From: Gelidibacter japonicus
Lineage (GTDB): Bacteria > Bacteroidota > Bacteroidia > Flavobacteriales > Flavobacteriaceae
Direction: 5' to 3'
NCBI RefSeq assembly: GCF_010725055.1
Contig: NZ_BJKB01000002.1
Location: forward strand, 124,001 to 188,000
DNA: 64,000 nt
Both the position numbers and the translations under genes were made by a program. The notes under the pieces were generated by a model. It searched no databases. It saw nothing but the letters and a program-made list of their open reading frames with translations, and was not told the origin of the DNA. Numbering within the stretch: the stretch's first letter is position 1; each line of letters opens with the position of its first letter. This document shows, in pieces, positions 13,111 through 59,332 of this stretch.

Positions 13111-13463
13111 GAAACTATTACTTATACTTTATTTTTTTTATTTATTGCTTGGTCGTCATTGCGAGCTTCTTAATTATGCCGTCATTGCGAACGAAGTGAA
13201 GCAATCTTTGGGTTTTGGCTAACCAATTATGAGATTGCCGCGTCGTTCCTTCGTCACTCCTCGCAATGACGCTTAGGTGGGAGACTCGCAATGACGCTAT
13301 GGTGGGCAGTCTTTGCAAGGACGCTATCGTGGCACTTCGCAATAACAGCTAATTGTTGCTTGTTTTCACTTCTCTATTCTTTACTCTTTTCTATTTTCTA
13401 TCCTCCACCGACTCACCTCTCACCACTCACCACTCACCACTAATCCCTAATCCCTAATCCCTA
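13111..13463 (-). repeat. wzm-wzt spacer, copy B, with palindromic dispersed repeat
   Basis: This gene-free stretch is a second copy of the spacer at 13600-14043. Both begin after the wzt start with the same AT-rich run and then a repeat with many facing segments (GTCATTGCGAG and CTCGCAATGAC; GAAGTGAAGCAATCT and its near-complement), able to form a long hairpin. Its far end is made of seven-base units: CACTCAC three times, then TAATCCC three times. Short reading frames inside it are not genes. Confidence 0.85.
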
Positions 13464-13519
13464 TTACACCGTATCAATAAACGATTTCTCCGTTTTGTTA
13501 AATATAACCAATCTTATTA
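13464..13519 (-). pseudogene. Remnant of the wzm 3' end
   Basis: The last 17 or so codons of wzm (ending NKTEKSFIDTV, then TAA instead of TAG) occur here a second time, with almost identical bases to the intact gene 580 bases away. It is joined without a gap to the wzt 5' remnant, so it is a junction scar and not a gene. Confidence 0.85.
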
Positions 13520-13599
13520 AAGTCGTGCTTAACCGTGCCCGTACCCACAGTGCCTAATCGGTATTGTTTGCTGATGTTTGAGGCTTTTAAAATGATCAT
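13520..13599 (-). pseudogene. Remnant of a wzt 5' end
   Basis: Starting at an ATG, the minus strand reads MIILKASNISKQYRLGTV and then GTGTVKHDFNK before running into the wzm tail. The intact gene reads the same protein up to GTGT and then ISHDLNR. At the base level the two copies differ at roughly ten mostly synonymous positions in 70, while the sequence just in front of the ATG is identical. The remnant therefore comes from a different wzt allele than the intact gene. Confidence 0.85.
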
Positions 13600-14043
13600 G
13601 AAACTATTACTTATACTTTATTTTTTTTATTTATTGCTTGGTCGTCATTGCGAGCTTCTTAATTATGCCGTCATTGCGAACGAAGTGAAGCAAATGCAGA
13701 GCATTCACTAACACCCCTTTATCAAAACTAAAAGACGTTAGTAATCTTTGGGTTTTGGCTAACCAATTATGAGATTGCCGCGTCGTTCCTTCGTCACTCC
13801 TCGCAATGACGCTTAGGTGGGAGACTCGCAATGACGCTAGGGTGGAGAGGCTTCTCAATGACAGCTCGTTATTCTTTGTTTTGGCTTCTCTGTCTTGGCT
13901 CTTGATTCTTGAATCGTTGATCTATTTTCTCCATATTCATTTCTCTATGCTCTATTTTCTATCCTCCACCGACTCACCACTTATCACTCATCATTCACCA
14001 CTAATTACCTAATCTCTATTCCCAAATACCTAATGCCTTTAAC
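13600..14043 (-). repeat. wzm-wzt spacer, copy A, with a 51-base insertion
   Basis: This copy lies directly behind the intact wzm. It matches copy B through the AT-rich run and the palindromic repeat but carries about 51 extra bases (near 13694-13744) inside the palindrome. The extra piece contains CACTAAC and GTTAGTA as facing arms. The distal part again falls into seven-base units (CTTGGCT CTTGATT CTTGAAT; CACTTAT CACTCAT CATTCAC). No gene is supported. Confidence 0.85.
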
Positions 14044-25575: not shown

Positions 25576-26025
25576 TCTGGACTCGAAAGAGTACTTCTGA
25601 AATTTTCTCGCAGAGACGCTGAGGCGCAAAGTTGTTGTTATTGATTGTTATTTATTTGTATTAATTATTGAAAGTTGAAAAGAGTAAAGTGGTCAACCTA
25701 ACTATTGATCCTTCGCGCAAACTTTGCGAATATTAGTATTAAGGCTTTTGAGATTTGTGGTAAATGTGCTTATTTTGGTATTTGGTATTTGGTATTTGGT
25801 ATTTCTGACAAATCAAATCAGTGCAAATCAGCAAAAATCCGCGTCATCAGCGTTCTATTTAATTTTGACCGATGACCAATGTCTGCTTGTCCGCAGCTTT
25901 TGCAGTAGCAGAAAACAATAGAAACAAGAAACCTGAAACCTGAAAAAAGCCTGCTCGTCCGCTTGCCCAAATCTTTTTAGAGACGGGGAACAATAGAAAC
26001 CATAAAAACAAGAAACTCCTAACCC
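25576..26025. other. Gene-free spacer with seven-base repeats and dispersed phrases
   Basis: Contains TTTGGTA repeated four times in tandem (25774-25801), a phrase CAAATCAGCAAAAATCCGCG followed by TCATCAGCGTTC that belongs to a class of dispersed spacer sequence, and seven-base units GAAACAA GAAACCT GAAACCT. No gene, RNA or terminator is supported. Confidence 0.7.
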
Positions 26026-26796: not shown

Positions 26797-26954
26797 CAAC
26801 ATGACGATTTGAACGTCATACCAATCGTAAATCAATTATCTTGCAAACACGAAAAATTCAAGATTCCATGTTTGATATTCCATGTTTGTTTATTCATCTT
26901 TGAACCTGGAACTTTGAACTTTGAACCTTAAAACTTTGAACCTTAAACACACCC

Positions 26955-27936: not shown

Positions 27937-29268
27937 TTGAAATTGTTTAAGCCTTTTTATATACAGCCTCGGTTTTTTTATAGTGGATTAGTCATTGTAA
28001 CTCTGTTCGTATTCAGTTATTTCGTTCCCGTTTTATTTGGCATTGCACAACTCTGCATCCTGGTGGTCCTATTATTGTTTTTTATTGATGTCTTGATCGT
28101 ATTCTTTGGCAAAAATAAAATTATGGGCTATCGAATTTTACCTGATAAATTTTCTAATGGCGATAATAATCAAGTAGAAATCAGTATTGAAAACCATTAT
28201 CCGTTCGCCATTGACTTAACTATTATTGATGAAATTCCATTTCAGTTCCAGGTACGGGATTTTGAGCTCAAACTGAACATCAAACCCCATAGGGAAGATC
28301 GCATCACCTATAACCTGAAACCAACGGAACGTGGCGAGTACCATTTTGGGAACCTTAATATTTACGCATCGACAAAAATTGGACTGGTGGCCAAGCGTTT
28401 TCGTTTTGACAATAAGGCCATGGTGCCCACCTATCCGAGTTTTAAGCAGCTCCGGAAGTTTGAATTGATCAACATCAATAATAGTCTGCAGGATTATGGG
28501 GTGAAGAAAATCCGTCGCATCGGGCATTCCATGGAATTTGAACAAATTAAGGATTATGTTTTAGGTGATGATCTACGTACCATCAATTGGAAAGCAACGG
28601 CCAAGAAAAACAACTTGATGGTCAACCAATTTCAGGACGAAAAGTCGCAACCCATTTATTCCATTATCGACAAAGGCCGCGTGATGAAAATGCCTTTTGA
28701 AGGCCTTAGTTTATTGGATTATGCAATTAATGCGACTTTGGTCATCAGCAGTATCGCCTTAAAAAAACACGATAAGGCGGGCATGCTTTCGTTCTCCAAA
28801 AAAGTGGAAAATATTGTAGTGGCACAACGTCGAAATTCGCAAATGCGTTTGATATTAGAATCGCTTTACAATGTGAAAACCGATTATTTTGAAAGTGATT
28901 TCAGCCGATTGTACGCCAACATTAAGCGCAATATCACCCAACGTAGTTTAATCCTACTCTACACCAATTTTGAAACTTTAGATAGTTTGAATAGGCAATT
29001 GGCCTATTTGAAAGCAATAGCCAAAAACCATCTTATCGTCGTCATCTTTTTCAAAAACACAGAACTCAACAGTATTATTGACGAAAAAGCAGAGACTATT
29101 CAACAGGTTTATGACAAGGTTATTGCCGAAAAATTTGCTTTTGAAAAACGATTGATCGTTCAGGAACTAAAAAAGTATGGCATCTACTCTATTCTAACCA
29201 CACCCGAAAATCTGACCATCGATACCATTAATAAGTATTTGGAGATTAAATCACGGGGATTGCTTTGA
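27937..29268 (+). CDS. DUF58 domain protein
   Basis: A 443-residue membrane-associated protein. Two adjacent hydrophobic helices (about residues 11-60) are followed by a beta-rich region and the DUF58 core: GHSMEFEQIKDYVLGDDLRT near 195 and INWKATAKKNNLMVNQFQDE, the family's R-x-W-K-A-like signature, then a vWA-like fold with IYSIIDKGRVM and LLDYAINATLV. DUF58 proteins usually act with MoxR AAA+ ATPases in complex maturation. No moxR is adjacent in this window. Translation starts at TTG; no upstream ATG is available. Confidence 0.88.
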   Translation: MKLFKPFYIQPRFFYSGLVIVTLFVFSYFVPVLFGIAQLCILVVLLLFFIDVLIVFFGKNKIMGYRILPDKFSNGDNNQVEISIENHYPFAIDLTIIDEIPFQFQVRDFELKLNIKPHREDRITYNLKPTERGEYHFGNLNIYASTKIGLVAKRFRFDNKAMVPTYPSFKQLRKFELININNSLQDYGVKKIRRIGHSMEFEQIKDYVLGDDLRTINWKATAKKNNLMVNQFQDEKSQPIYSIIDKGRVMKMPFEGLSLLDYAINATLVISSIALKKHDKAGMLSFSKKVENIVVAQRRNSQMRLILESLYNVKTDYFESDFSRLYANIKRNITQRSLILLYTNFETLDSLNRQLAYLKAIAKNHLIVVIFFKNTELNSIIDEKAETIQQVYDKVIAEKFAFEKRLIVQELKKYGIYSILTTPENLTIDTINKYLEIKSRGLL

Positions 29269-29440
29269 AGGAAGTTGGCAGTTGCAAGTTGGCAGTCGTC
29301 AGTCTTCAGTTAGCAGTCTTCCCGCCTACGCTTCGCTACCAGCCTTCGTAAAAACTACGGACGGGCAGGCCCGCCTGCGCTGCGCTACCCGCCTGCGCTG
29401 CGCTACGGACGGGCAGGCAGTTTTAAGGTATCGACAGTCA
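29269..29440. repeat. AGT heptads and a G+C-rich palindromic block
   Basis: Starts with consecutive seven-base units AGTTGGC AGTTGCA AGTTGGC AGTCGTC AGTCTTC AGTTAGC AGTCTTC. Next comes a G+C-rich block (29322-29420) in which CCCGCCTGCGCTGCGCTAC occurs twice and CGGACGGGCAGGC flanks it. The composition is far from the AT-rich surroundings. No gene. Confidence 0.75.
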
Positions 29441-30830
29441 ACAATCAACAATCAAAAATCAACAATCAAAAATCTTCAACCCGCCCCTACCTAAGAAGGT
29501 ACGTTCGGGCAAGTCGTTATTCTTTATTCGATATTCTTTATTCGTTATTCAAAACATTCAAAGCACAAATTTAAATCACCTATGCAAAGCAACTTAGTCA
29601 CGCCAACATTTCTCCGTGCTTCAACCTTCCCGCTCCAAACACTAAAAACCATTCATGTATTCGTGGCCAACAACATTTCGACTTCCCCCGATTCTTGAGT
29701 CTTGAATCTTGAATCTCGAATCTTGAATCTTGAATCTTGAGTCTTGAATCCTGCTTCAAAAATCATCAATCTTCAATCAACAATCTTCAATCTTCAATCA
29801 ACAATCTTCAACCCGCCCCTACCTAAGAAGGTACGTTCGGGCAAGTCGTTATTCGTTAATCAAAGTGCAAATTCACTTCATCTCTACAAGATAACTTAAT
29901 CACGCATTTCTTCGTGCTTCAAGCATCCCCCTCCAAACTCTAAAAACCATTCGTGTATTCGTGGCCAACAATATTTCGCTTATCCCGATTCTTGAGTCTT
30001 GAATCCTAAATCTTGCTTCAAAAATCATCAATCTTCAATCAACAATCTTCAATCTTCAATTAGTCACGGCAAAATTTCTTCGTCCTTCAACCTTCCCGCT
30101 CCAAACTCCAAAAATCCATTCCTGTATCCGTGGTCAACAATATTTTGACTTCCCCCGATTCTTGAGTCTTGAATCTTGAATCCTGCTTCAAAAATCATCA
30201 ATCTTCAATCAACAATCTTCAATCTTCAATCAACAATCTTCAACCCGCCCCTACCTAAGAAGGTACGTTCGGGCAAGTCGTTATTCGTTATTCGTTAATC
30301 AAAGTGCAAATTCACTTCATCTCTACAAGATAACTTAATCCCGCATTTCTCCGTGCTTCAACCTTTGCGCTTCTAACTCCAAAAATCCATTCCTGTATCC
30401 GTGGCCAACAACATTTCGACTTCTCCCCATTCTTGAGTCTTGAGTCTTGAATCCTGCTTCAAAAATCATCAATCTTCAATCAACAATCTTCAATCAACAA
30501 TCTTCAATCTTCAATTAACAATCTTCAACCCGCCCCTACCTAAGAAGGTACGTTCGGGCAAGTCGTTATTCATTATTCGTTATTCAAAATACAAATTCAA
30601 CTCATCTATGCAAGGCAATTTATTCACGCCAACATTTCTCCGTGCTTCAACCTTCCCGCTCCAAACTCCAAAAATCCATTCCTGTATCCGTGGTCAACAA
30701 TATTTTGACTTCCCCCGATTCTTGAGTCTTGAGTCTTGAATCCTGAATCTCGAATCTCGAATCTTGAATCTTGCTTCAAAAAACCATTCCTGTATTCGTG
30801 GCCAACAATATTTCGTCCCTAACAGCATCA
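29441..30830. repeat. Modular repeat array without genes
   Basis: An array of about five degenerate units of roughly 290-430 bases. Each has, in order, a GCCCCTACCTAAGAAGGTAC module followed by GTTCGGGCAAGTCG (near 29477, 29810, 30242 and 30528), TTATTCG heptads, a CCGTGCTTCAACC block, a GTATTCGTGGCCAACAA module (six copies, near 29655 to 30789), TTGAATC heptads and CAATCTT/CAACAAT heptads. Reading frames in it change with each unit and code for nothing recognisable. Confidence 0.85.
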
Positions 30831-30953
30831 ACTTTGGCAAAAACAACACTTCAACTTTCGACTTTTATTTGTTAATAATTATACTTTAATTAACCATCTG
30901 TATAATAGTTTTTATAGATAGTTTTTATATTTTTATAGTTTAAATGAATAACC

Positions 30954-31892
30954 ATGACCATTACACAGTTAACCTATGTTATCGCTATTGCTGAACATAA
31001 AAACTTCACAAAAGCCGCCGAAAAATGTTTTGTCACGCAACCAACATTGAGTACCCAGATCCAAAAATTAGAAGAAGAATTAGAGGTTCTTATTTTTGAT
31101 CGCAGCAAAAAACCTATAGAACTCACTGAGGTTGGACGAAAAATAGTACAACAAGCACGAAATATCGTCAATGAATCCGAGCGGATCCAAGACATTGTCG
31201 ATCAGCAAAAAGGATTCATCGGTGGCGAATTCCGATTAGGAATTATACCCACGGTAATGCCCACTTTGCTTCCTATGTTTTTAAAGGCATTTATAAAGAA
31301 GTTCCCTAAGATTAAGCTGAGGATCGAAGAACTCACTACTGAAGAAATTATCCTAAGAATTAAGGAGGGACACTTAGATGCCGCCATTGCCGCAACTCCC
31401 TTGGAGAGTGAAAACATAAAAGAACGTGTCCTGTATTATGAACCTTTTGTAGGCTATATACCAGAACACCATCGTCTTTTTGAAAAGAAAACCATTGAAG
31501 TGTCCGACCTTGAAATTAACGATATGTTGCTGCTTGAAGATGGCCATTGTTTTAGGGACGGGATCATTAATCTATGTAAAGCATTTAAAGATCAGAATGA
31601 CGAGAATTTTCAGTTGGAAAGCGGCAGTATAGAAACCTTGATAAAACTATCAAATGAAGGATTGGGAATGACCTTACTTCCCTATTTACACACTCTTGAA
31701 CTCAATGAGAATCTCAAGGTCAATCTCCACCATTTTAAAGAGCCTTCACCTGCCCGCGAAGTCAGTATTATTTACCATAAAAGCGAATTGAAAATGCAGA
31801 TCATCGACGCCTTGCACAACGTAATATCTGGAATTATCCGTGGAGCGATTACCTTCCAAAACGTAAAAATAATTAGTCCGCTAGCAAAATGA
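30954..31892 (+). CDS. oxyR: OxyR-type LysR family peroxide sensor
   Basis: A 312-residue LysR-type regulator. The winged helix-turn-helix covers residues 1-60 (FTKAAEKCFVTQPTLSTQIQ). The effector domain keeps the OxyR redox pair: Cys199 and Cys208 in EDGHCFRDGIINLC, with the same numbering, spacing and flanking residues as E. coli OxyR. TLIKLSNEGLGMTLLP follows as in OxyR. It should activate peroxide-defence genes after disulfide formation; none of its usual targets (catalase, ahpC, dps) is next to it. A hairpin terminator lies 41 bases behind the stop. Confidence 0.93.
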   Translation: MTITQLTYVIAIAEHKNFTKAAEKCFVTQPTLSTQIQKLEEELEVLIFDRSKKPIELTEVGRKIVQQARNIVNESERIQDIVDQQKGFIGGEFRLGIIPTVMPTLLPMFLKAFIKKFPKIKLRIEELTTEEIILRIKEGHLDAAIAATPLESENIKERVLYYEPFVGYIPEHHRLFEKKTIEVSDLEINDMLLLEDGHCFRDGIINLCKAFKDQNDENFQLESGSIETLIKLSNEGLGMTLLPYLHTLELNENLKVNLHHFKEPSPAREVSIIYHKSELKMQIIDALHNVISGIIRGAITFQNVKIISPLAK

Positions 31893-58951: not shown

Positions 58952-59332
58952 ATCTCCACTAATATTTTAACGGATTTCTCTGTGAAACTTAATAGTGGGC
59001 AGTGGATAGTGGGTAGTAGTGGATTGACGGTGTATAATCCTCTCAACTTCATTGGAGAAGAGATTAAAACAACCTAAATAATGAAATCCGTTTATTCTTC
59101 TTCAATAGTTTCTGCGGCAATCTGCGGGAAACTTTAATGGTAAGTGACGGACAACTTCTCCCAACAACCTTCAGGAGTCAATTTCAACTTCAATTTCAAT
59201 TTCGACTTCTCCCGATACCCATTGGGATTCAACCTTCAGCGTTAAATTCTATATAAATCTCCATAGACTCGTATTTTTTTCTAATGGAAATCACTAACTT
59301 TTCATCAACTAATTCAAAATCCGAAGCGCTCT
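58952..59332. other. Gene-free spacer with heptads and hexads
   Basis: AGTGGGC AGTGGAT AGTGGGT near 58994 are seven-base units. TCAATT TCAACT TCAATT TCAATT near 59180 are six-base units. CTGCGGCAATCTGCGGGA near 59112 is a dispersed phrase. No gene. Confidence 0.65.

Follow-up and report, generated by a model that had tools for sequence, protein, structure and literature searches.

Seven-base tandem repeats of many different units in the gene-free DNA of a marine Gelidibacter

The gene-free DNA of this marine Gelidibacter is dotted with tandem repeats of a seven-base unit, and these were confirmed as real in the window (the whole 64,000-nucleotide stretch of Gelidibacter japonicus DNA that was analyzed) and in further samples of the same genome. 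They are probably heptanucleotide simple-sequence repeats, made and remade by a slippage-like copying process with a seven-base step. Neither a sequence-reading protein nor a single mobile element fits as well as slippage-like copying: in the few orthologous spacers compared the arrays differ by whole units, substitutions are even along the unit, no shared motif was replicated, the units fold less than their shuffles, and arrays are scarce in divergent spacers. Both the phenomenon and its explanation by seven-base slippage are already known, and Gelidibacter is a new and rather clear case of them.

The genome (G000, 4.67 Mb) was sampled as the window plus 1.2 Mb of stretches at positions fixed beforehand. 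Spacers were defined by a crude caller that kept the longest open reading frames of at least 80 codons, giving 661 spacers (158 kb). Exact runs of at least three copies, not explained by a shorter period, were counted in these spacers with N masked. Units of seven bases gave 39 runs, against 3 runs for units of five bases and none for units of six, eight or nine; units of 14 bases gave 2 runs in the same recount. With the window removed, the counts for five to nine bases were 3, 0, 35, 0 and 0. The 39 runs use 29 distinct units, so that no single repeat family lies behind the excess, and coding DNA of the same genome (1.05 Mb) held no exact run of at least three copies of a seven-base unit. 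A wider run list contained 40 heptad runs with 30 units, including one run of A. The sequence-only reading had proposed a conserved period without a conserved sequence, a seven-base register and no single spreading element. These counts bear it out, as do some orthologous spacers that keep the period with changed units.

Exact two-copy runs of five to nine bases numbered 211, 83, 99, 9 and 8 in a count that included runs of shorter period. The special feature of the seven-base repeats is growth: two-copy runs of six bases are near those of seven in number, yet runs of at least three copies number 0 and 39. Under a slightly narrower definition, which also included runs of shorter period, 76 two-copy heptads were found against 30.3 expected and 81 two-copy six-base runs against 82 expected. 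Period 7 was the commonest class of TRF arrays in spacers, both in 800 kb beyond the window (27 of 88 arrays) and in a further 400 kb (13 of 43); the corresponding coding samples gave 0 of 81 and 1 of 35, and the looser TRF arrays in coding DNA of the window gave 1 of 10.

Plain autocorrelation is a diluted and weaker signal than the run counts. In the window spacers, identity at lag 7 was 0.3275, where dinucleotide shuffles gave 0.2807 (z 11.9), with z values of -0.3 at lag 6, 1.3 at lag 8, 3.8 at lags 3 and 4 and 4.1 at lag 18. Lag 7 remained the largest when 29269-30953 was removed (z 5.1); when 13111-14043 was removed as well it fell to z 2.9, with lag 18 slightly larger (z 3.1). Over 800 kb beyond the window, lag 7 stood 0.0126 above its neighboring lags and lag 6 stood 0.0059 above. 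The first 400 kb of this gave 0.2959 at lag 7, barely more than the 0.2953 at lag 6, with lag 21 at 0.2961, and lag 6 exceeded lag 7 in 3 of the 8 other Gelidibacter genomes (G005, G007 and G008).

All 10 of the heptad strings tested from the sequence-only reading were present in the window, 0 to 14 bases from where it had put them. Its TTGAATC and CAACAAT/CAATCTT runs were visible in TRF, and its six-base exception near 59180 was present. The arrays are collected in Table 1.

Table 1. Heptad arrays and duplicated core in the window
Feature	Position	Basis
CACTCAC and TAATCCC heptads, adjoining	13406..13463	TRF and string match
CTTGGCT-type and CACTCAT-type heptads	13872..14002	TRF 13872-13900 (period 14) and 13967-14002; strings at 13894 and 13978
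TTTGGTA x4.4, exact	25774..25804	TRF and string match
GAAACAA GAAACCT GAAACCT	25921..25945	TRF 25928-25945 and string match
TTTGAAC/CTGGAAC heptads	26898..26941	TRF, 73% matches; string at 26899
Degenerate array AGTTGGC/AGTCTTC (NNNCAGT type), directly after DUF58 gene	29273..29320	TRF 29279-29318; string at 29273
Array ATCAACA/ATCAAAA	29430..29474	TRF period 7, 6.4 copies
Array TTATTCG/TTATTCT	29514..29550	TRF; exact string at 29517
About five tandem copies of locus-specific core, start-to-start 168-298 bases, heptad blocks between	29556..30820	Repeat search (D1-D5)
Arrays TTGAATC, then AATCTTC/AATCAAC	29693..29811	TRF 29693-29750 and 29761-29811
Array AATCTTC/AATCATC	30018..30060	TRF
Arrays TTGAATC and AATCTTC/AATCAAC	30160..30243	TRF 30160-30182 and 30193-30243
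TTATTCG x2.9, exact	30278..30297	TRF
Arrays TTGAGTC and AATCTTC/AATCAAC	30431..30528	TRF 30431-30450 and 30464-30528
TTATTCA/TTATTCG x3	30566..30586	TRF
TTGAATC/TTGAGTC/TCGAATC x7.7	30720..30773	TRF
AGTGGGC AGTGGAT AGTGGGT, weak	58992..59017	TRF, 73% matches, score 31; string match

Two arrays of a 25-base unit, CTCGCAATGACGCTATGGTGGGAGA, lie at 13260-13332 and 13800-13862, beside the other repeats of that spacer. Elsewhere in the samples, the spacer L138:18665-19553 carries TAGTGGG x14.3, exact, followed by a 14-base unit, AATCAACAATCCCC, x7.9, which consists of two related heptads. A long AATCTTC/AATCATC array at G000:C1:99860-100290 gave 15 pattern hits in ~430 bases, and its spacings of 7, 35 and 77 suggest a higher-order period.

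The main spacer of the window, 29269-30953, lies between a DUF58 gene and a LysR-type regulator gene. Many of its runs are not independent, which corrects the sequence-only reading: those at 29517-30780 sit in about five copies of a locus-specific core that was locally duplicated. Within the own genome, a 148-base core query matched this locus only, at 6 places; it gave one strong match in G004 and three in G006 (G. maritimus). The heptad runs may have let the core between them duplicate into the five-fold array. No known RNA family reached the gathering threshold in 29200-31000, and the DNA of the region gave no match on plasmids. GC-rich dispersed pieces also occur in this spacer, namely CCCGCCTGCGCTGCGCTAC...GGACGGGCAGGC and a hairpin-like CCCGCCCCTACCTAAGAAGGTACGTTCGGGC (four times), at 29320-29420 and with starts at ~29478, 29812, 30244 and 30529; G004 and G. 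maritimus have similar pieces in their spacers. When the CCCGAACGTACC element was sought with a perfect-stem pattern, the own genome gave no match, the pattern being too strict for counting.

The same locus was followed in relatives, in which the DUF58 protein has identities of 93% (G. maritimus), 90% (G. gilvus), 88% (G. algens) and 87% (G. mesophilus). The core copies of the window carry TTGAATC/TTGAGTC heptads; in G. maritimus the three core matches are accompanied by TTGGCTC/TTGTATC and by TTATTCG in up to seven copies. In G004 a CAGT-type array was seen together with a single core copy, whose heptads run to two or three units. CAGTTGG and GGTCTTC heptads are present in G. algens, and G. 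gilvus has a few irregular CAGT units. No array was found at the locus in G005, G. salicanalis, G. mesophilus or the uncultured L154, in several of which another predicted gene follows. On the upstream side of the DUF58 gene, which is the flank seen for loci L023 and L025-L029, 9 of 79 named loci have a period-7 array of at least 3.9 copies, with differing units. Four of these units are closely related (AACTAAC, AACTAAT, AACTATT and AACTTTT), as if an old array had kept its place while its unit was replaced; the four were picked after looking, and their p value of 0.0006 is only illustrative. The remaining units are unrelated (such as TGAGCAG, CAGTGTT, AATGAAT, CATACGG, CTGAAAC and CAGTCTT).

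Orthologous spacers were compared between species. Filters were passed by 7 of the 52 array-bearing spacers of the own genome, two of the 7 being one spacer split by a spurious open reading frame (30440-30739). Some of the arrays compared differ by whole units, some occupy the same site but are homogenized to a changed unit, and some are absent from one of the two species. In the spacer 25576-26025, GACCGAT-type units are present x2 in the window and x7 in G. maritimus, and the G. maritimus ortholog of this spacer lacks the doubled GAAACCT of 25921-25945. One of the sampled spacers carries GATTTGC x3 in G000 and GATTTAC-type units x3 in G004; another has TCTTTAT x13, perfect, in G000 and about five mixed TCTYTNT units in G005. 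Relatives lacked the array in 2 of the 7 comparisons (L013 against G. mesophilus and L138 against G007). The sequence-only reading had proposed a check for mutation by whole units between strains; copy number appears to vary in this way between species, at the few sites compared.

Substitutions are spread evenly over the seven positions. In 55 degenerate arrays, several of them from one window spacer, variable positions numbered 2.87 against 2.83 expected under a null that takes no account of shared descent among the units. On the same figures, five fixed and two hypervariable positions were rejected as a general rule. A fixed GA/TC dinucleotide in each unit was dropped as well: it was present in 31 of 36 first units (p 0.006) and in 12 of 18 new units (p 0.41), all drawn from period-7 arrays of at least 2.9 copies with 14-, 21- and 28-base arrays left out. 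The units form weaker folds than their shuffles do (-0.51 against -1.32, sd 0.27, n 54), so hairpins were ruled out as the driver of growth. Divergent spacers hold few arrays of period 7, 14, 21 or 28 (13 of 103, where length would predict 25.5; p 0.002). Other tandem arrays are not depleted there (5.0 per 10 kb against 5.7 and 4.2). For the 73 arrays of tandem spacers, the median distance was 107 bases to the next start and 74 bases to the previous stop, with starts crudely called. A strand preference in these spacers, with the purine-rich strand on the coding strand in 45 of the 73 arrays, was too weak to use. The even substitutions, the unreplicated GA/TC, the low folding and the scarcity in divergent spacers argue for neutral DNA, tolerated at the places where its harm is smallest, and against a role as binding site or as part of a promoter. 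No evidence of function was found, and the heptads are presumed to have none.

The process would be replication or repair slippage. Two-copy heptads in tolerant spacers would lengthen by whole units, point mutation would make the units drift, and renewed growth would homogenize an array to a variant unit; the place and period of an array could thereby persist while its unit sequence turns over. The ruler may be a polymerase contact, an idea credited to Mrazek et al. (2007). Slippage in general gives no reason why units of six and eight bases fail. Mismatch repair is established to be poor at longer loops (discussed in PMC4060949), but weak repair of longer loops cannot alone explain the non-growth of six- and eight-base repeats. 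Nor is seeding neutral: the excess of two-copy heptads in G000 has no counterpart in other Flavobacteriaceae, where 34 were found against 32.3 expected. Runs of at least five copies number 10 in the latter sample without that two-copy excess, which means few intermediates and is not predicted by a slow stepwise model. A further reading, in which Flavobacteriaceae have a dedicated sequence-indifferent activity (a polymerase variant or copying enzyme) with a hard seven-base step that extends any two-copy spacer heptad and ignores six- and eight-base repeats, is considered unlikely.

Unequal recombination between pre-existing heptads would change the number of units and homogenize arrays, with seven merely inherited from the founding arrays. 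The duplication of the core at 29269-30953 as a block with heptads at its borders is consistent with it, as are the replaced units at orthologous sites. The 29 units in the sampled quarter of the genome would however need many independent founders, all seven bases long, and many arrays are shorter than 50 bases, which is short for RecA exchange. Such recombination is given a low probability.

A dedicated copying enzyme with a seven-base template or step, such as a reverse transcriptase or a telomerase-like or terminal-transferase-like activity, could write the arrays directly, and would account for the sharpness of seven over six and eight and for the finding that other Flavobacteriaceae have long perfect arrays but only few intermediates of two copies. 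The unit sequence is almost free, so that no fixed template can be in use, and orthologous sites hold seeds and degenerate units, which points to growth from local DNA; such an enzyme is quite improbable.

Very improbable is that the heptads are tandem sites for a protein, of the cold-shock type for instance, whose monomers each take a step of seven bases, the register being kept by selection. Translational regulation has been suggested for the TAACTGA repeats of a Beggiatoa relative, and CspB can bind heptamer repeats (MacGregor, 2015, PMC4679880). GA/TC is in excess over all 54 units (43, p 0.0125), but this is owed to the first set and did not recur in the new units. The substitutions fall evenly on the seven positions, the divergent, promoter-bearing spacers are poor in arrays, and an array may be present in one species of the genus and absent in another. 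Among the mechanisms offered by the sequence-only reading, the slippage-like process was thus favored and the seven-base-reading protein found no support. One mobile repeat family that spread through the genome and then drifted apart is equally improbable: some types recur (NNNCAGT and AATCNNC), and unit pairs within one change are somewhat in excess (59 against 44.7 for shuffles, sd 5.1), so that descent between arrays plays some part, but the 29 distinct units speak strongly against it, the non-heptad core occurs at one locus only, and orthologous spacers point to in-place growth from seeds.

The reach of the heptad runs was surveyed in relatives. The 8 other Gelidibacter genomes (94 kb of spacer) had 12 exact runs at seven bases and, for the remaining lengths between 5 and 13, a total of 5. 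Other Flavobacteriaceae (74 loci, 128 kb of spacer) had 16 runs at seven, with 14 units, and a total of 4 for those remaining lengths; their 18 four-base runs were no more than chance. No run at seven was found in 31 kb from 7 genomes of the family and order, where 3.8 were expected at the rate of other Flavobacteriaceae. One was found in 34 kb from 20 genomes of the phylum, and none in 17 kb of E. coli K-12. Lineages clearly differ in the trait; the samples from beyond the genus were small.

The reason for the dominance of heptads among long bacterial simple-sequence repeats has been open since 2007 (PMC4679880; PMC4692102). Gelidibacter is a useful case because seeds, growth and replacement are visible side by side, and the genus offers many units in one genome together with relatives that have or lack an array at the same site. 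Two-copy runs of six bases are nearly as common as those of seven and do not grow, so a plasmid assay could test the seven-base ruler directly. The arrays would be good markers for strain typing, and could break assemblies. No paper on Gelidibacter tandem repeats was found in a literature search, and a search on intergenic heptanucleotide repeats in flavobacteria found MacGregor (2015, PMC4679880) alone.

Several known systems were compared. A mobile repeat element has one conserved sequence at many loci; Gelidibacter has 29 units and a core at one locus only. The STRR (short tandemly repeated repetitive) heptamers of heterocystous cyanobacteria are heptameric, dispersed and intergenic. They belong to another phylum than Gelidibacter and are likened to its heptads by description. 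Heptads of Calothrix are mentioned in PMC4692102, where Rehm et al. (2015) describe the GGGNATC and GGGGA(C/T)T heptads of Xanthomonas and Nostoc. These resemble the Gelidibacter heptads in being intergenic, with heterogeneous units and with length and sequence that vary between close relatives. They are G-rich and can form quadruplexes, whereas GGG or CCC is present in 3 of 30 Gelidibacter units.

TAACTGA direct repeats were described in Beggiatoaceae, Cyanobacteria and five Bacteroidetes, with longer heptamer arrays in flavobacteria such as Gramella and other heptamers alongside; the closest relatives have shorter spacers without obvious repeats (MacGregor, 2015, PMC4679880). These are intergenic heptads, as in Gelidibacter, but there one unit dominates and lies mostly just before start codons. 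In Gelidibacter the TAACTGA unit (rotation AACTGAT) accounts for 1 of 40 exact runs, and the arrays lie at the greater median distance from the next start given above rather than a few bases before it.

The closest likeness is to the bacterial heptanucleotide repeats of Mrazek et al. (2007). Many bacteria have an excess of heptameric repeats, and the 2007 survey is credited with finding heptanucleotides to be the commonest long unit in most genomes surveyed and with the idea of slippage set by the polymerase footprint (PMC4679880; PMC4692102). The seven-base slippage register put forward in the sequence-only reading, which was supported in part overall, is thus older than that reading. Gelidibacter shares the excess of seven over neighboring lengths (39 against 3, 0, 0 and 0), the intergenic placement and the absence from coding DNA (no exact run in 1.05 Mb). 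The passages that describe that survey name no Flavobacteriaceae, and what Gelidibacter adds is units that are many and often degenerate, with some orthologous sites compared.
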